A DNA stretch of 36,694 nucleotides from Klenkia terrae (GTDB lineage Bacteria; Actinomycetota; Actinomycetes; Mycobacteriales; Geodermatophilaceae), in assembly GCF_900491935.1 (NCBI RefSeq), contig NZ_UEXK01000004.1, positions 1,957,331-1,994,024 of the forward strand. The letters are read 5' to 3'. Both the position numbers and the translations under genes were made by a program. How positions within the stretch are numbered: the stretch's first letter is position 1; the number at the start of each line of letters is the position of its first letter. Below, in pieces: positions 2,118-14,449 of the stretch. A model generated the notes under the pieces. It was not told the DNA's origin. It did no database searches and saw only the letters and a program-made list of their open reading frames with translations.

Positions 2118-3935
2118 TCAGGCGGCGTGCGCCGCCTGGGCCGGGACCAGCGCCCACAGGGCGGCCGCCAGGGCGTCGTCCTGGTGGAAGAAGGGGGCGT
2201 TCGTCCGCGGCCGGGCGAACGCGGCCACCTGGGCGCCCGACGTCCAGAAGCCCACCGCGTGCACCCGGGCGGCCGACCGGCCGTGGCGGTCCACCAGCCG
2301 GTAGCCGGCGTCGACGTGCAGCCGCCCGGTGCCGGGCTGCTCGGCGGCGGTCCCGCGGGCCTGCAGGGCGCGCAGCAGCGGGTCGGTGGTCCGTGCGACG
2401 TCGACGGCGGGCACCCGGGCCTCGACCAGCGCAGTCGCGGTGGTCACCTCGTCGGTGCTGGCCGAGCGGGCGACCCAGCGGTCGCCCTCCAGCGTCACCA
2501 CGGTGTCCGCACCGGTGAACCGGACGACGCCGGCCTCGCACAGCGCCAGCAGTTCCGCCAGCCGCGGGGACGGCGGTCCGCTGGCGAGGTGGCTGAACAG
2601 GTTCATCCACCAGCCGCTGACGTCCTCGCGCGCCGACCGCTCGGTCAGCCGGCCGGCCCGCACCAGCCCGGCGATCGTGCCGTGGCAGAACAGCAAGGCG
2701 GTGAAGACGGCCTGGTCGGCGCTGTGCGCCGGGTCGGCGGCGCGGGCCAGGTCGGCCCGGACGTAGCCGCGGACCCACTCCTGCAGCTGCTCGCCGGTCG
2801 CGAACCGGGCTCCGGCCAGCGGGCGGTCCAGGGCGGCGAGGTCGAACCGGTCGGCCGGGTCGAGGACCGCCGCGGCCCACGGGTCCTCGCCGGCGGCGTA
2901 CCGCGCGGCGAACTCCTCCCACGGCATCGCCACCCGCTCCGGGTGCGCCCGGAACAGCTCGGTGGCGTGCGCCCAGCCCAGCTCGCGGGCGATCACCGGG
3001 GCCAGGTCCGCCCGCAGGTCCAGCGGGCGGTCGCCGAACCGGGCGGTCAGCTCGTCGGGGGTGAAGAAGCGCAGCGGGACCGGCGGGCCGGCCCAGTCGT
3101 AGTCGAGCTTGGCCTTGTAGGGGGTGCCGCGGCGGGAGCCCACGTGCAGCACCGGCTCCTGCCCCGAGGGCAGGTAGACCAGCCGGCCGTCCGGGTCGGT
3201 CCGGAACCGTCCCCCGCGACCGCCGGTCAGCAGGGTGACCAGGTCGACGAAGGCCAGCCCGGCCCCGCGGACCAGCACGTCCTCACCCGGGCGGAGCACG
3301 GAGAGGTCCAGGTCGGCGGTGTAGGCGGTGGGCACGTGGGTCAGCCCGGCGGCCGCGGCGGCGTCGGCCAGCTCGACCTCGCCGTCGGTGCGGGTGCGGT
3401 CGAGGTGCCCCTGGGCGAGCACGACGGTGTCGACGTCCAGCCGGCCGCCGTCGGCGAGCTGCACCTCGACGGCGGTGCCGTGCTCGACCAAGTCGACCGC
3501 CCGGGTCCGGTGCCGGTGCACCGTCACCCCGGGCAGCGCGGCGAGGCGGTCGAGCACCCACCCGAGGTAGCCGCTGACCAGCCGGCGGGACGGGAAGGTG
3601 CCGGGGGTGGTCCGGCGGGCCTGCGCGCCGTCCTCGCCGGGCAGCTGCGCGCCGACGTCGGCGGCCCACTGCGCCACGGTGGCGCCGGGGACGACCCGGC
3701 CGGGCACCGTGACGGAGTCGTCGGGCAGCACGGTGACGTCCCGGGCCAATGAGTTGGCCCACAGCAGGTCAGACTGCGCGGTCCGCCAGACCCGTCCGCC
3801 GCCGGGCGGGAACGGGTCTACCAGGTGCACGACGAGGTCGTCGCCACCCGCCCGGGAGGCGAGGCGCTCGAGGACGCCGACGGCGGTGGGGCCGGCACCG
3901 ACGAGGGCGACGGTGAGGGTGTTCGGGCTGGTCAC
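2118..3935 (-). CDS. FAD/NAD(P)-binding protein
   Basis: Flavoprotein of about 605 residues from the FAD-NAD(P)-binding family related to flavin monooxygenases. The N-terminus has a Rossmann dinucleotide motif (VALVGAGPTAVGVLERLA). The segment WANSLARDVTVLPDD follows, the strand VVLAQGHLDRTR lies near the middle of the first half, and a second nucleotide-binding-like motif (VLVRGAGLAFVDLVTLL) lies further on. The open frame extends far upstream, but GTG at 3935 is the sensible start: it begins directly with the Rossmann strand and has GGAG about 8 bases ahead. A cysteine-containing leader peptide (3976-4053) precedes it by 40 bases, and it is divergent from the SAM-IV-controlled transporter operon. 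This places it in sulfur metabolism. The substrate is unknown; an oxygenase acting on an imported sulfur compound is inference. Confidence 0.8.
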   Translation of the reverse strand: MTSPNTLTVALVGAGPTAVGVLERLASRAGGDDLVVHLVDPFPPGGGRVWRTAQSDLLWANSLARDVTVLPDDSVTVPGRVVPGATVAQWAADVGAQLPGEDGAQARRTTPGTFPSRRLVSGYLGWVLDRLAALPGVTVHRHRTRAVDLVEHGTAVEVQLADGGRLDVDTVVLAQGHLDRTRTDGEVELADAAAAAGLTHVPTAYTADLDLSVLRPGEDVLVRGAGLAFVDLVTLLTGGRGGRFRTDPDGRLVYLPSGQEPVLHVGSRRGTPYKAKLDYDWAGPPVPLRFFTPDELTARFGDRPLDLRADLAPVIARELGWAHATELFRAHPERVAMPWEEFAARYAAGEDPWAAAVLDPADRFDLAALDRPLAGARFATGEQLQEWVRGYVRADLARAADPAHSADQAVFTALLFCHGTIAGLVRAGRLTERSAREDVSGWWMNLFSHLASGPPSPRLAELLALCEAGVVRFTGADTVVTLEGDRWVARSASTDEVTTATALVEARVPAVDVARTTDPLLRALQARGTAAEQPGTGRLHVDAGYRLVDRHGRSAARVHAVGFWTSGAQVAAFARPRTNAPFFHQDDALAAALWALVPAQAAHAA

Positions 3936-3975
3936 GAGGGGACTCCGGGGCTGGCGGCGGACGGTGGGCGAGGGC

Positions 3976-4053
3976 CTACCGACAGCGGCCCAGCGCGCTG
4001 CCGGTGCGGCACAGGTCCACGTGGCGACGGCGGACGAGCGGCTGGTCGGGCAT
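3976..4053 (-). CDS. Cysteine-rich leader peptide of the FAD protein gene
   Basis: A 25-codon reading frame opens with ATG at 4053, preceded by a near-perfect ribosome site (GAGAGGAGG, about 7 bases ahead), and stops at 3976. It ends RRRHVDLCRTGSALGRCR. This matches the actinobacterial putative leader peptides with an RRxVDLxR core and a Cys-Arg end that stand before sulfur-assimilation genes. It has two Cys codons near the 3' end. In that family, ribosome stalling at Cys codons is believed to couple downstream expression to cysteine supply. Here the downstream gene starts 40 bases later. The mechanism is inferred; the reading frame and its ribosome site are seen. Confidence 0.8.
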   Translation of the reverse strand: MPDQPLVRRRHVDLCRTGSALGRCR

Positions 4054-4098
4054 CGCGGACCTCCTCTCCGGAGCGGGTGGACGACCTCATTCTCCACC

Positions 4099-4109
4099 AA
4101 GTCGATCGG
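4099..4109. promoter_or_regulatory. Conserved AAGTCGATCGG box in the divergent sulfur promoter
   Basis: AAGTCGATCGG here, followed by ATTTGAC, recurs almost unchanged on the minus strand at 11706-11696, where GATTGAC follows. Both copies lie just upstream of a SAM-IV riboswitch. In this copy the box is in the middle of the divergent region between the FAD protein leader and the transporter operon, so it may serve both. It is a candidate binding site for a sulfur regulator. The regulator is not identified. Confidence 0.4.
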
Positions 4110-4111
4110 AT

Positions 4112-4141
4112 TTGACGCATCGGCCCGGGTTGTCCTACGTT
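4112..4141 (+). promoter_or_regulatory. Promoter of the SAM-IV/leader/ABC operon
   Basis: TTGACG at 4112-4117 and TACGTT at 4136-4141 are separated by 18 bases, a good sigma70-type (SigA/HrdB) arrangement. The expected transcription start, near 4148, is exactly where the SAM-IV aptamer begins. The call rests on hexamers, spacing and the fit to the aptamer start. Confidence 0.55.
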
Positions 4142-4147
4142 CCTGCA

Positions 4148-4229
4148 CAGGTTCTGAGCGCCAGCGACAAGCCCCGGCTCGCTGGCCGGCAACCCTCCGC
4201 TGCGGTGGGGTGCCCCGGGTGACGACCTG
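4148..4229 (+). ncRNA. SAM-IV riboswitch
   Basis: The aptamer core matches the actinobacterial SAM-IV class. The closing stem is CAGGT (4148-4152) with ACCTG (4225-4229). Between them are GAGCGCCAGCGACAAGCCCC, then GGCTCGCTGGCCGGCAACCC, then GCGGTGGGGTGCCCCGGGTG. SAM-IV binds S-adenosylmethionine and usually turns off sulfur-acquisition genes when SAM is plentiful. A perfect CCCCGCC-GGTC-GGCGGGG hairpin at 4259-4276, just ahead of the GAGGAG ribosome site of the leader peptide, is a likely part of the expression platform. The target is the acetyltransferase/ABC transporter operon. Confidence 0.9.
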
Positions 4230-4290
4230 GCGACGGTGCACGACTGTCGCAAGTGCAGCCCCGCCGGTCGGCGGGGGACGAGGAGACGAC

Positions 4291-4398
4291 GTGGAGATCA
4301 CCGAGACCGCCCCGCGGTCCGTGCTGCTGCCTGTCCTCCTCCTGGTCGGGCGGCGGGTCATCGACCTGGTCCGTACCGACAGCGCGCTCTGTCGCTGA
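4291..4398 (+). CDS. Leader peptide between the SAM-IV riboswitch and the acetyltransferase/ABC operon
   Basis: A 35-codon frame starts at GTG 4291 behind GAGGAG and ends GRRVIDLVRTDSALCR-stop. It has the same core (RRxxDLxR, then S-x-L-C-R at the end) as the leader peptide on the opposite strand. A single Cys codon is second from the end, the usual place for cysteine-sensing leaders. A shorter version from GTG 4321 is possible but has no ribosome site. A GC-rich fold (CCCCGGGCGGGG region, about 4440-4452) lies between it and the acetyltransferase start at 4479. The unusual point is that the aptamer and the peptide are arranged in series on one transcript. Confidence 0.75.
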   Translation: MEITETAPRSVLLPVLLLVGRRVIDLVRTDSALCR

Positions 4399-4478
4399 CC
4401 TGTTCCCGCGCTCCCCCACCCACGCCCGGACATCTCCCTCCCCGGGCGGGGTCCCGGCACCGTCCCAGGAGTCCCCGC

Positions 4479-5021
4479 ATGTCCTCAGCACGCCTGCTCG
4501 GCGTCGGCGCCGACGTCGACGTGGTCGTCGTCCACCCCGACGACCCCCTGGCCCGACCCCTGTTCGCCGAGCTCGCCGTGGAGTACGACCGCCGCTACGG
4601 CGACCTGTTCGGCGGCGCCGAGCAGGAGCTCACCCGCTACCCGGTGGAGCAGTTCACCGCGCCGCTGGGTGCCTTCGTGCTGCTGCTCGAGCACGGGGTC
4701 GCCGTGGCCGGTGGCGCCTTCAAGCCGCACCCGGACGACGGCACCGTCGAGGTGAAGCGGATGTGGACCGCCGCCGCCCACCGCCGGCGCGGGCTGGCCC
4801 GCCGGGTGCTCGCGGAGCTGGAGGCGGTGGCCCGGGACCGGGGCGCCGCCCGCGTCTTCCTGACCACCGGACCCCGGCAACCCGAGGCCCGGTCGCTCTA
4901 CCTGGCCGCCGGCTACACCCCGCTGTTCGACCCCGCCGTCCCCCGGCCCACGGACCTCGCGACCCTCCGGTCGCTCCCGGTCGCCGAGCGCATCTACGCC
5001 TTCGAGAAGGACCTCACATGA
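4479..5021 (+). CDS. GNAT family N-acetyltransferase
   Basis: A 180-residue single-domain GCN5-related acetyltransferase. The acetyl-CoA loop is visible as AAHRRRGLARRVLAELEAVA (R-x-x-G-x-A), after the strand VEVKRMWTAA and before ARVFLTTGPRQPEARSLYLAAGYTPL, the standard beta5/alpha4 end. ATG 4479 has AGGAG 9 bases ahead. Its stop overlaps the permease start (ATGA), so it is translationally coupled to the ABC transporter. GNAT genes joined to cystine-type transporters in Bacillus (ytm and yxe operons) N-acetylate S-substituted cysteines so that they can be cleaved. By analogy this enzyme may acetylate the imported amino acid; its substrate is not shown by sequence. Confidence 0.85.
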   Translation: MSSARLLGVGADVDVVVVHPDDPLARPLFAELAVEYDRRYGDLFGGAEQELTRYPVEQFTAPLGAFVLLLEHGVAVAGGAFKPHPDDGTVEVKRMWTAAAHRRRGLARRVLAELEAVARDRGAARVFLTTGPRQPEARSLYLAAGYTPLFDPAVPRPTDLATLRSLPVAERIYAFEKDLT

Positions 5022-5989
5022 CCCTGCTGGAGAACCGCGCCGACGCCCCGCCGGCCGGCACGCCCTACGACCGCCTCACCGTGGTCAAGGCCAAGAACCC
5101 CGGGCGGTGGGTGGCCACCGCGGTGGTCGCCGTCCTGCTGGCCATGGTGGCGAACTCGCTGATCACCAACCCCCGCTGGGAGTGGGGCGTCGTCTGGGCC
5201 TACCTGGGCGAGGTCTCGATCGTCGAGGGCGTCTGGATGACGATCAAGCTGACGCTGATCACCGCCGTCCTCGGGTTCGCCCTGGGCACGGTGCTCGCGC
5301 TGATGCGGCTGAGCCGGTCCCCGCTGCTGCGGGCGGTGAGCTGGGGCTACACCTGGGTGTTCCGCTCGGTGCCGTTGATCCTGCAGCTGCTGCTCTGGTA
5401 CAACCTCGCCTACCTGTACCAGTCGCTGGACATCGGCATCCCGTTCGGCCCGTCGTTCGCGTCGGTCGAGACGCTGTCGCTGATCGACAAGTTCGGCGCC
5501 GCGATCCTCGGCCTGGGGCTGCACCAGGCCGCGTACTCGGCGGAGATCGTCCGGGCCGGGATCCTCTCGGTGGACCAGGGCCAGCACGAGGCGGCGGCGA
5601 GCCTGGGCATCCCGCGGCGCCGGCAGTCCACGAAGATCGTGCTGCCGCAGGCGATGCGGACCATCGTGCCCACCGCGGTCAACGAGATCATCGGCCTGTT
5701 CAAGGGCACCTCGATCGTCTACGTGCTGGCCCTCGGCGAGCTGTTCTACACCGTCAGCGTGATCTACGGCCGGACCCAGCGGGTGCTACCGATGCTGGTG
5801 GTGGCCGCGATCTGGTACGTCGTGCTGACCACCGTGGTGACGGTGATCCAGTACTACGTCGAGCGGTACTACGCCAAGGGCGCGGTCCGCACGCTGCCGC
5901 CGACACCGCTGCAACGGCTGCGCGGCAACCTGACCGCCGGGCTGTCCCGCGTCCGGTCCACCTCCGACCGCGACCCGGTGACCCGGTGA
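5018..5989 (+). CDS. Amino acid ABC transporter permease
   Basis: A 323-residue inner-membrane permease of the polar amino-acid uptake (PAAT/HisM) family. A cytoplasmic N-terminal tail precedes the first membrane segment (about residues 25-45, VATAVVAVLLAMVANSLI). A core of four or five further segments follows, beginning at VWMTIKLTLITAVLGFALG. The EAA loop that docks with the ATPase is clear (EAAASLGIPRRRQSTKIVLP), as is the FRSVPLILQLLLWY signature. It overlaps the acetyltransferase by 4 bases (ATGA) and the ATPase by 4 bases (GTGA). With one permease gene it probably works as a homodimer. The likely substrate is cystine or another sulfur amino acid, inferred from the SAM-IV and leader-peptide control. 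Confidence 0.9.
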   Translation: MTLLENRADAPPAGTPYDRLTVVKAKNPGRWVATAVVAVLLAMVANSLITNPRWEWGVVWAYLGEVSIVEGVWMTIKLTLITAVLGFALGTVLALMRLSRSPLLRAVSWGYTWVFRSVPLILQLLLWYNLAYLYQSLDIGIPFGPSFASVETLSLIDKFGAAILGLGLHQAAYSAEIVRAGILSVDQGQHEAAASLGIPRRRQSTKIVLPQAMRTIVPTAVNEIIGLFKGTSIVYVLALGELFYTVSVIYGRTQRVLPMLVVAAIWYVVLTTVVTVIQYYVERYYAKGAVRTLPPTPLQRLRGNLTAGLSRVRSTSDRDPVTR

Positions 5990-6765
5990 CCGCGGTGCAG
6001 GCCCGCCCGGGCCGCGTCGAGGTGCACGGGGTGCACAAGTCCTTCGGCACCCACGAGGTGCTGCACGGGGTCGACCTGGTCGTCGAGCCGGGCAGTGTGA
6101 CCGTCGTCCTGGGGCCGTCCGGGTCGGGCAAGTCGACGCTGCTGCGGTCGATCAACCACCTGGAGACCGTGGACCGCGGGTTCGTGGCGCTGGACGGCGA
6201 GCTGGTCGGCTACCGCCGCAAGGGCGACAAGCTGCACGAGCTCAAGGAGAAGGAGCTGCTGCGCCAGCGCACCCGGTTCGGCTTCGTCTTCCAGTCCTTC
6301 AACCTCTTCCCGCACCTGACCGCCCTGGAGAACGTCGTCGAGGCACCGGTCTCCGCGCAGGGCCGGCCACGCCGCGAGGTCGAGGCCGAGGCCCGCGAGC
6401 TGCTGTCCCGGGTCGGGCTGGCCGACAAGGCCGACGCACACCCCCGGCAGCTGTCCGGCGGGCAGCAGCAGCGGGTGGCGATCGCCCGGGCGCTGGCGAT
6501 GAAGCCCGCCGTCCTGCTGTTCGACGAGCCCACCTCGGCGCTGGACCCCGAGCTGGTCGGCGAGGTGCTGGCCGTCATCGCCGACCTGGCCCGCACCGGC
6601 ACCACGATGATCGTGGTCACCCACGAGATCGGCTTCGCCCGGCAGGCCGCCGACCAGATCGTCTTCATGGACGACGGCCGCGTCGTCGAGCAGGGCACCC
6701 CCGCCCAGGTCCTCGACGACCCGCAGCACGAGCGGACCCGGGCCTTCCTGGCCAAGGTCCTCTAG
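5986..6765 (+). CDS. Amino acid ABC transporter ATP-binding protein
   Basis: A 259-residue ATPase of the GlnQ/HisP type. Walker A is GPSGSGKST, the Q-loop VFQSFNLFPHLT, the signature LSGGQQQR, Walker B VLLFDEPT, the D-loop SALD and the switch His VTHE. An insertion rich in charged residues (YRRKGDKLHELKEKELLRQ) before the Q-loop is typical of several amino-acid importers in this family. The GTG start overlaps the permease stop. It energises the 5018-5989 permease and works with the two binding proteins downstream. Confidence 0.93.
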   Translation: MTAVQARPGRVEVHGVHKSFGTHEVLHGVDLVVEPGSVTVVLGPSGSGKSTLLRSINHLETVDRGFVALDGELVGYRRKGDKLHELKEKELLRQRTRFGFVFQSFNLFPHLTALENVVEAPVSAQGRPRREVEAEARELLSRVGLADKADAHPRQLSGGQQQRVAIARALAMKPAVLLFDEPTSALDPELVGEVLAVIADLARTGTTMIVVTHEIGFARQAADQIVFMDDGRVVEQGTPAQVLDDPQHERTRAFLAKVL

Positions 6766-6840: not shown

Positions 6841-7818
6841 GTGACTGCACACCTGCGACGCAGCACCGTCGCACTGTCCCTGGCCACCGCCGCGCTCCTG
6901 GCCCTCGGGGCGTGCAGCAGCAGCGCCGAGATCGAGGAGGAGGCCCGGACCGGGGACGCCGCCGACGGCGCCGCCATCTCGGTGAACACGAGTCCCGAGC
7001 AGGACCGCATCCACTCCACCGTCGACCCCGCCGCGGTGGCCCTGCTCCCCCCGGGCGCGTTCGACGACGGCGTCCTCCGGGTCTCGGTGACCCAGGGCGC
7101 CGTACCGCTGGCGTTCTACGCCGACGACAACTCCACCGTGATCGGCAGCGAGACCGACCTGGCCACGCTGTTCGGCGACGCCCTCGGCCTGCAGGTCGAG
7201 TTCGTGGTCAACGACTGGTCGAACTGGCCGCTGTCGGTCCAGTCCGGCGACGTCGACGCGGTCATCTCCAACGTGACGGTCACCGAGGAGCGCAAGCAGC
7301 TCTACGACTTCGCCACCTACCGGTCCGACGTGCTCGGCTGGCTGGTCGGCGCGGACTCCGGCCTGCAGATCTCCTCGGCACCCGACATCGCCGGCCTCAC
7401 CGTCGGAGTCGCCTCGGGCACCAACCAGGAGCAGATCCTGCTGGCCTGGGACGCGGAGAACGTGGCTGCCGGCCTGGCGCCGGTGACCATCGACTACTAC
7501 CCGAAGTACGACGACGCGATCCTGGCGCTGCAGTCGGGCCGGCTGGACGCCTACGTCGGGCCCAACCCGACGGCGGCCTACAGCGCGGCCACCGCACCGC
7601 AGGACTTCGCCATCGCCGGCACCACCAGCGGCGGCTGGCCGGCCACCGCCGACATCGCGGTCACCACCGTCCGGGGCAACGGCTACGCCGCGGCCTTCCA
7701 GGCGGCGGTCGACCACGTCATCGCCGACGGCACGTACGCCGAGGTCCTGGCCCGCTGGGGCCTGCAGGACGAGGCCGTCGACAGCTCCCAGCTCAACCCG
7801 CCCGGCCTGGGCGCCTGA
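6841..7818 (+). CDS. Extracellular amino acid-binding lipoprotein (first copy)
   Basis: A 325-residue family 3 substrate-binding protein. A lipoprotein signal peptide with a hydrophobic stretch (VALSLATAALLALGAC) ends in the lipobox LGAC, so the mature protein is lipid-anchored outside the membrane. Typical SBP family 3 features follow: GVLRVSVTQGAVPLAFYADDN, the core SGDVDAVISNVTVTEERKQL, GLTVGVASGTNQEQIL and ALQSGRLDAYV. The start is GTG behind AGAGGAAG. It lies 75 bases after the ATPase, and the second copy follows after 4 to 16 bases. The two share most landmarks along their whole length, including the ARWGLQDEAVD end, so they are a tandem duplication. Confidence 0.92.
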   Translation: MTAHLRRSTVALSLATAALLALGACSSSAEIEEEARTGDAADGAAISVNTSPEQDRIHSTVDPAAVALLPPGAFDDGVLRVSVTQGAVPLAFYADDNSTVIGSETDLATLFGDALGLQVEFVVNDWSNWPLSVQSGDVDAVISNVTVTEERKQLYDFATYRSDVLGWLVGADSGLQISSAPDIAGLTVGVASGTNQEQILLAWDAENVAAGLAPVTIDYYPKYDDAILALQSGRLDAYVGPNPTAAYSAATAPQDFAIAGTTSGGWPATADIAVTTVRGNGYAAAFQAAVDHVIADGTYAEVLARWGLQDEAVDSSQLNPPGLGA

Positions 7819-7834
7819 CCGAATGAGGATCCAC

Positions 7835-8800
7835 GTGAAACCCCTGCGCATCGCCGCTGCCCTGCCCGTCGCCGCCGTCCTGCTGCTGACGGCCTGCACC
7901 AGCTCCGCCGACATCGAGGCGGAGGCCCGGGCCGACAGCACCGGCTCGTCGGAGACCGTCCTGGTCGTCGACACCTCGCCGGAGCAGGCCGACCGCGTCC
8001 GCACCGACGAGGACCCGGACGCCGCCGAGCTCGTGCCCGCCGACATCGCCGAGGACGGCGTCCTCCGGGTGGGCATCCCCGGCGCCGGCGACCCGCCGCT
8101 GGGCTTCCTGGCCGACGACAACAGCACCGTCGTGGGCAGTGAGGTCGACATCGCCCAGCTCGTCGCCGACGGCCTGGGCCTGGAGCTCGAGGTGGTCAAC
8201 ACGACGTGGGAGGGCTGGCCGCTGGGCGTGCAGTCCGGCGACCTGGAGGCGGTGTTCTCCAACGTCGGGGTCAACGCCGACCGGCTGCAGCTGTTCGACT
8301 TCGCCACCTACCGGCAGGGGATCATGGCCTTCGTCGCGGCCCCGGACACCGACCTGTCCATCGCCGGCGCGGAGGACATCTCCGGGCTGCGGATCGGGGT
8401 GGGCTCGGGCACCAACCAGGAGCGCATCCTGCTCGACTGGAACGCGCAGCTGGAGTCCGAGGGGCAGGAGCCGGCCCAGCTGGAGTACTACGTCAGCGCG
8501 GGGGACGCCCTGCTGGCGATCCAGTCAGGCCGGCTGGACACCTACCTGGGGCCGAACTCGAACGCGGTCTACCAGGCCTCGGTGGGCGACGTGGAGGTCG
8601 TCGGCACGGTGAACGCCGGCTGGCCGAACACCACCTACGTCGCGGCCACCACGCTGAAGGGCAACGGCCTGGTCACCGCGATCCAGGCCTCGCTGCAGCA
8701 CGCCTTCGACGACGGCACCTACGAGCAGACCCTGGAGCGCTGGGGTCTGCAGGACGAGGCGGTCGACGCCCCCGAGATCAACCCCACGGTCGCCTCCTAG
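7835..8800 (+). CDS. Extracellular amino acid-binding lipoprotein (second copy)
   Basis: A paralogue of the preceding gene, about 321 residues, with a signal peptide (ALPVAAVLLLTAC lipobox) and the same family 3 layout: GVLRVGIPGAGDPPLGFLADDN, SGDLEAVFSNVGVNADRLQL, GLRIGVGSGTNQERIL, AIQSGRLDTYL and the ERWGLQDEAVD end. GTG 7835 is chosen because GAGGA stands 5 bases ahead; an ATG at 7823 would add four residues and has no ribosome site. Two paralogous binding proteins for one permease/ATPase pair resemble Bacillus TcyJ/TcyK and suggest a widened substrate range. A 96-base palindrome follows the stop. Confidence 0.9.
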   Translation: MKPLRIAAALPVAAVLLLTACTSSADIEAEARADSTGSSETVLVVDTSPEQADRVRTDEDPDAAELVPADIAEDGVLRVGIPGAGDPPLGFLADDNSTVVGSEVDIAQLVADGLGLELEVVNTTWEGWPLGVQSGDLEAVFSNVGVNADRLQLFDFATYRQGIMAFVAAPDTDLSIAGAEDISGLRIGVGSGTNQERILLDWNAQLESEGQEPAQLEYYVSAGDALLAIQSGRLDTYLGPNSNAVYQASVGDVEVVGTVNAGWPNTTYVAATTLKGNGLVTAIQASLQHAFDDGTYEQTLERWGLQDEAVDAPEINPTVAS

Positions 8801-14377: not shown

Positions 14378-14449
14378 TCAGCGACAGAGCCAGCTGGCGG
14401 TGCCGGCCAGGTCGACGGCGAGGTCGCGCGTCAGGAGCAGCCGGTGCAC
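14378..14449 (-). CDS. Leader peptide of the metNIQ operon
   Basis: A 24-codon frame from GTG 14449 to the TGA at 14378 ends RDLAVDLAGTASWLCR. It shares the xVDL core and the S-x-L-C-R end with the two leader peptides near position 4000-4400, though the core is more divergent. The ribosome site is weak (GAGGG about 12 bases ahead). The Cys codon is second from the end. Likely a cysteine-responsive attenuator of metNIQ. Confidence is lower than for the other two because the start is not fixed by a good ribosome site. Confidence 0.6.
   Translation of the reverse strand: MHRLLLTRDLAVDLAGTASWLCR

Follow-up and report, generated by a model that had tools for sequence, protein, structure and literature searches.

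The locus described here raises the question of whether an RNA sensor and a translated sensor of sulfur status can be joined in series on a single transcript. In the window, that is, the whole 36,694-nt stretch of Klenkia terrae DNA that was analysed, a SAM-IV riboswitch aptamer, a hairpin and a short leader peptide ORF follow one another on the plus strand and all precede an acetyltransferase/ABC transporter operon, an order that had been proposed in an earlier note and is confirmed here. The operon opens with a GNAT acetyltransferase gene (4479–5021; PF00583, E 4e-14), followed on the same strand by an ABC permease of the polar amino acid type (5018–5989; PF00528, E 2.3e-23; TIGR01726 above cut-off), an ABC ATPase (5986–6765) and two family 3 solute-binding proteins (6841–7818, PF00497, E 5.4e-22; 7823–8800, PF00497, E 1.9e-19). 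The best NCBIfam hit of the permease is the cystine permease PRK15100 at 131 bits, under its cut-off of 300, and that of the ATPase is L-cystine TcyN at 317 bits, under its cut-off of 406. Every NCBIfam hit of the first binding protein lies under cut-off, and none gives it a cystine-specific assignment; neither of the two binding proteins has a clear substrate. The genes probably form an operon for the uptake of sulfur compounds.

The aptamer lies at 4150–4261 (plus strand) and matches Rfam model RF00634 with 96.4 bits (E 1.4e-16) over positions 1–116 of 116, which makes it a member of this family by covariance score over the whole model (gathering score 38 bits). The covariance search suggested in the earlier note thus recovered the aptamer placed there at 4148–4229, but that end is too short by 32 nt, because the last hairpin and the 3′ tail, up to 4261, belong to the RF00634 model. 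The aptamer is a putative SAM binder that would lower expression. The strong hairpin that had been read at 4259–4276 is found at exactly that place on the plus strand, as a 7-bp stem (CCCCGCC-GGTC-GGCGGGG) between the aptamer and the Shine-Dalgarno (SD) site of the leader; its 5′ arm shares the final 3 nt of the aptamer match, and it has no U-tract. At 30 of 34 tandem sites, in which a leader of this kind follows the aptamer, a stem of at least 5 bp lies between aptamer and leader SD, as against 1392 of 3400 mononucleotide shuffles. An intrinsic terminator was considered and rejected, as no terminator-like site is present within 3900–4600 of the window, and so none between aptamer and leader.

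Downstream of the hairpin, a GAGGAG SD-like site (4280–4285, plus strand) precedes the leader ORF VEITETAPRSVLLPVLLLVGRRVIDLVRTDSALCR (4291–4398, plus strand), which comprises 35 codons from a GTG start and ends in SALCR before its stop. A leader HMM built without the Klenkia rows gives it 33.2 bits, the best of 2,000 dinucleotide shuffles (450 nt) reaching 8.8 bits, and the 35-codon peptide first noticed by inspection is thereby borne out. Position 4291 is taken as its start from the SD and from the start codons of the genus (ATG in six and GTG in two of eight sequences at the matching place, the window's included), because the frame is open upstream as far as 3571. Across the last 20 codons of the eight Klenkia sequences four vary, three of them synonymously and one as Pro/Arg, changes so few that they alone are thin evidence of coding. 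NF042934, the NCBIfam “putative leader peptide” model, is matched over its entire profile (1–19 of 19; E 0.0011) with 18.5 bits, a weak match under the curated cut-off of 27. The window leader does have the family's features, an SD site and a short ORF ending in a D-L-x-R...C motif, as read in part from the family's sequence matches. A divergent leader peptide, MPDQPLVRRRHVDLCRTGSALGRCR (3976–4053, minus strand), scores 29.1 bits with the same model, above its cut-off of 27; it precedes a FAD/NAD(P)-binding gene (3935–2118), has no SAM-IV of its own and shares one intergenic region with the tandem element.

Cysteine sensing, which the earlier note had attributed to the leader, finds indirect support. 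Among eight tandem leaders scanned, all match NF042934 at E≤0.0012 (four above cut-off), and six match the Cys-rich leader models Ms4527A or Ms5788A, all under cut-off; the window's own leader resembles NF042934 and has no hit to either Ms model. It contains a single Cys codon, TGT, and no run of several such codons, the trait of M. smegmatis-type attenuators according to a cited title. Operon expression may respond to cysteine through the leader ORF.

Relatives carry the same arrangement. Aptamer and leader stand before the permease operon in eight of nine Klenkia genomes, while in the ninth (G006, a draft of 260 contigs) no permease homologue is close (best 33% identity); in G004 (L017) only a short ORF is left of the GNAT gene (by eye), and the permease is still preceded by an intact aptamer and leader. 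The survey of relatives that had been suggested thus found the peptide frame kept in the genus and beyond it. SAM-IV is present in at least 89 of 112 family genomes and at least 114 of 197 class genomes. Such a leader (18–43 bits) lies downstream of the aptamer at 34 of the 163 sites read (genus 8/30, family 16/52, class 10/81), which is not an unbiased frequency, because the regions were hand-selected out of larger lists of hits (30 of 33 genus sites; 40 family and 80 class regions). The HMM was trained on 20 peptides, and the survey scores of the 15 tandem sites among these are partly circular, since they belong to the training set; L120, L126, L147 and L148 are outside it. Start codons and gene starts in the survey, the pattern set, the spacing and the folding are automatic SD-based calls. 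L148, which ends in SSAY without Cys, is counted among the 34 sites and left out of the 33 used for the codon count below. At L067 (G084), left out of the 34, the leader frame is broken and the aptamer and GNAT frame look intact, which could reflect an assembly error or decay.

A pattern scan of genome contigs, in which Asp, Leu and Ser (AGC codon) were fixed and Cys was left as TGY, gave at least 119 loci, and a leader is present in 115 of the 119 listed; L182, L237 and L266 (no ORF by script) and L228 (Bradyrhizobium, lacking the motif) were dropped. The loci listed are mostly from Streptomyces (counted by eye), with others from Micromonospora, Geodermatophilaceae, Kitasatospora, Streptacidiphilus, Actinacidiphila, Pedococcus, Humibacillus, Terrabacter, Luteipulveratus, Microlunatus and Pseudonocardiales MAGs. 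Another 18 tandem loci, hand-picked from the 119 listed, were tested with Rfam, which confirms SAM-IV in all 18, the match overlapping the pattern core each time. As ten of the 115 loci repeat genomes of the first survey set, there are at least about 139 distinct tandem loci (34 + 115 − 10). A tblastn comparison of 11 queries with 149 elements found the same permease-ATPase-binding-protein operon recurring (permease about 49% identity in Streptomyces), and also family 5 binding proteins, a separate Micromonospora family 3 system, luciferase-like (flavin) monooxygenases and an FMN reductase; none of the 11 query proteins had a match in 17 elements, for several of these because the locus stops shortly after the leader. 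A chance ORF beside the riboswitch might explain the score below the NF042934 cut-off and the frame open far upstream, but it is hardly credible given the shuffle comparison, the recurrence of the tandem in both the pattern and covariance-model (CM) sets, and control scores of at most 6.0 bits in antisense and 3.9 bits at 600–1050 nt downstream; conservation refutes it. Aptamer and leader in series are thus confirmed, and the tandem arrangement recurs in many actinobacteria.

How the two parts might work together is best explained, by a slight preference, as a nested two-sensor 5′ element before the GNAT-ABC operon. From the arrangement of the parts we infer that SAM-IV, situated directly before the ribosome-binding site of the leader, would lower leader translation when SAM is bound. 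Once the leader is translated, the ribosome would read its conserved C-terminal peptide, in which the proposed stall codon, UGU for Cys (4390–4392, plus strand; Asp+9 of the motif), is the last codon but one. With enough Cys-tRNA the ribosome would finish and leave, the C-rich stretch beyond the stop would be exposed and transcription would end early, probably via Rho; with little Cys-tRNA, a ribosome stalled at UGU would shield the start of this stretch and the operon would be transcribed. High SAM and high cysteine would each switch the operon off, and the genes may therefore be expressed only while SAM and cysteine are both scarce. Counting against this explanation are the window leader's position under the NF042934 cut-off, its missing Ms-model hit and its one Cys codon.

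Nesting is supported chiefly by the spacing of the leader, which is positional evidence. At the 34 tandem sites the leader starts 14–39 nt after the aptamer (median 33). For 74 of the 124 non-tandem SAM-IV sites with a callable gene, the structural gene begins 26–54 nt after the aptamer, with 10 nearer and 40 farther, and ten of the far sites have another mini-uORF in between; at the 21 tandem sites with a called gene, the gene starts only after 193–614 nt. The leader thus lies where the directly controlled ORF of single SAM-IV sites usually stands, and the sensors look nested rather than independent, since the aptamer lies right next to the ribosome-binding site of the leader itself. It is rather unlikely that the same RNA bears two independent controls, the aptamer acting alone, through transcription or the stability of the RNA, and the leader being an ordinary Cys attenuator that would be the same without it. 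That would agree with the existence of same-family leaders without SAM-IV (only one of nine matches at E<0.03 in the window genome is behind SAM-IV), with the same C-rich sequence following them, and with the 129 of 163 SAM-IV sites that have no such leader; it sits less well with a leader start placed where single SAM-IV sites most often put the regulated gene, and with the window's terminator-free interval between aptamer and leader. The stop codon is followed by a C-rich, G-poor, rut-like stretch (4399–4460, plus strand; 55% C, 24% G), the trait of a Rho-dependent attenuator, here by composition only. C minus G has a median of 0.209 in leader-to-gene stretches (n=86) compared with 0.027 in other upstream regions of the same loci (n=296; p 4e-30, the sequences not being independent owing to relatedness), and a mean of 0.214 after leaders without SAM-IV (n=92), so the bias says nothing about SAM. 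Such a composition suits Rho, already proposed for mycobacterial cys operons in PMC1262725, the accessible part of which describes the prediction made there as rather weak. Just the first few nucleotides of the C-rich stretch would be covered by a ribosome stalled at UGU, which counts against the nested explanation. Cys leaders of M. smegmatis reportedly work by translational attenuation, stalling being proposed to free the SD site of the first gene. Such a release at the first structural gene here is improbable, although it would accord with the Ms-model matches of the tandem leaders and with the translation attenuation ascribed to M. smegmatis cysteine genes in the available text of PMC13236596. 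When 84 elements were folded with the Cys codon masked as if by a ribosome, the gene SD was not opened over the control position (mean unpaired 0.275 free, 0.282 stalled, 0.287 at the control position), and gains in exposure above 0.1 were no more frequent (8 stalled, 9 control). On this ground SD release was rejected; the folding result speaks against it and not against Rho, and the leader-to-gene distance is variable, from 76 to 444 nt.

What the ribosome would sense depends on how the Cys codon and the residues before it are read. At Asp+9, Cys is encoded by TGT in all 33 CM-survey tandem leaders that have this residue and in 115 of 115 leaders among the pattern loci listed, the pattern having allowed TGY, against a background share of TGT among Cys codons of 4–16% (4/103 in window ORFs, 33/577 in family loci, 194/1211 in the first-listed 78 pattern loci). 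TGT is likewise found in 45 of 49 same-family leaders without SAM-IV, so UGU belongs to the leader family and not to the tandem. A single tRNA-Cys would presumably read this codon slowly, by wobble. An inverted repeat around the codon (GACAG-CGCGCT-CTGTC) was considered as the reason for its fixation; this reading is weakened in general, because the partner Ser is not AGC in 29 of the 49 leaders without SAM-IV and at least 25 of those keep TGT, and it may still hold for the window itself. In the 78 of 111 leaders where the pattern imposed Asp, Leu, Ser and Cys of the motif, the constancy of these residues is no evidence. Residues that the pattern did not impose are also kept, with mixed synonymous codons, namely Val or Ile at Asp−1 (111/111) and Arg at Asp+3 (102/111), and a simple codon sensor would have no need of conserved residues well before the Cys. 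They would suit a nascent-chain arrest peptide that senses something other than Cys-tRNA, such as a sulfur metabolite, and that is arrested at the Cys. This is unlikely, however, in that a UGU fixed beyond what the amino acid needs points to the decoding of that codon.

Several further observations concern SAM-IV sites and leaders of other kinds. In Streptomyces loci such as L157, L160 and L164 a different leader form occurs, RRHIDLxRVCSAI, whose Cys stands at Asp+5 and which lacks one at +9; it shares loci with tandem elements, and most of the 44 leaders listed without Cys at +9 look like it. Some of the nine leader-alignment matches of the window genome (L274–L282) precede, by eye, sulfite reductase, alkanesulfonate monooxygenase, cation symporter and cysteine dioxygenase genes. 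Unlike tandem sites, single SAM-IV sites (L045, L046, L074, L134 and others) precede MetF-, MetE-, MetY-, MetX- and SufS-like genes (by eye). A second kind of mini-uORF, of 6–12 residues with an in-frame CGA-ATG (Arg-Met; for example VSKRMR, MTCRMPF and VNHHRMRR), lies 34–60 nt after the aptamer at 10 of 163 sites (L071, L073, L074, L077, L080, L084, L091, L106, L107 and L110), with a SufS-like or MetY-like gene (named by eye) after it; CGAATG itself occurs at 12 of 163 SAM-IV sites and in 4 of 645 control windows. The metL leader of S. lividans contains a Cys-Arg-Arg-Met-Cys stretch, according to the accessible part of PMC8079986. On the minus strand of the window, a leader-like ORF, VHRLLLTRDLAVDLAGTASWLCR (14378–14449), which has no NCBIfam hit, is followed by genes for a MetN-like ATPase, a permease (both named by eye) and a MetQ-like lipoprotein (14281–11767), then by a second SAM-IV aptamer (11671–11559; Rfam 109.3 bits, above the gathering score) and a SufS-like gene (11519–10152).

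In its widest form, the proposal is that the riboswitch licenses an amino-acid-sensing leader, that a single RNA thereby tests in series for low SAM AND low cysteine, that this nested gate stands, across Actinomycetota, ahead of several import and sulfur-scavenging operons that are unrelated to one another, and that the invariant, wobble-read UGU is the stall point; we hold this evenly in the balance. Studies usually treat riboswitches and leader peptides as distinct forms of control, and here they are stacked at near-constant spacing, in what would be a natural logic gate open to direct reporter testing. If the gate is true, it would explain a division of labour in which single SAM-IV sites serve methionine and sulfur-transfer genes, and tandem sites serve importers and flavin monooxygenase/reductase genes, the products of which could feed both cysteine and methionine. 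The fixed UGU offers a sharp and cheap test of codon-level design in attenuators.

Individual traits of this element have counterparts in known systems. In tnaC of E. coli, which senses tryptophan, a ribosome that stalls shortly before a short ORF ends shields the rut site next to it; such shielding is common to tnaC and the proposal made here, while tnaC has no riboswitch. Ms5788A and Ms4527A of M. smegmatis (NF042933, NF042936) are Cys-rich leaders (Canestrari et al., 2020, as cited in the available parts of PMC13236596 and PMC9094748) and, like the tandem leaders, are short ORFs with a C-terminal Cys codon. They differ in being leaderless and polycysteine, going by the cited title, whereas the tandem leaders have an SD site, one fixed motif UGU and SAM-IV in front. 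In the portion of PMC8079986 that is accessible, SAM-IV precedes a cysteine desulfurase gene, and none of eight S. lividans leader peptides is named a Cys leader or joined to SAM-IV. Two inputs, SAM and uncharged initiator tRNA, likewise converge on one leader RNA in SAM-IXcc of Xanthomonas, for which the accessible text of PMC7270179 names no leader peptide.

Riboswitches that work through upstream translation are also known. SAM-II of Sinorhizobium metA (PMC9373788, available part) similarly acts on translation at an upstream start site, although it is of another SAM class and involves an in-frame second AUG and no separate sensing peptide. The B12 riboswitches of M. tuberculosis, with their metE and ppe2 uORFs, likewise combine a riboswitch and a translated uORF in one leader; their ligand is different, and amino-acid sensing by the uORF is not mentioned in the accessible part of PMC11260477. 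The M. tuberculosis Mbox, as described in the accessible part of PMC12810186, acts with Rho on translation of the uORF rv1805A, and resembles the arrangement proposed here in that a riboswitch would control a conserved uORF, with Rho-dependent termination before the operon. The position of the tandem leaders, 14–39 nt after the aptamer, would fit a uORF under riboswitch control of the Mbox kind. The Mbox differs in sensing Mg2+ and in that the role of rv1805A is unclear according to the same source, whereas the uORF here resembles a Cys sensor; the main 3′ end in that system, moreover, is situated before the conserved uORF, and a second model is put forward by the authors of that study, which counts against the Mbox as a precedent. 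SAM-IV joined to a cysteine leader was not found in the literature searched, which covered few subscription papers and is no proof of novelty. Within that literature, to the extent that its texts are accessible, control of a uORF by a riboswitch and Cys-sensing leaders are each already known separately, and it is their union that would be the new part.
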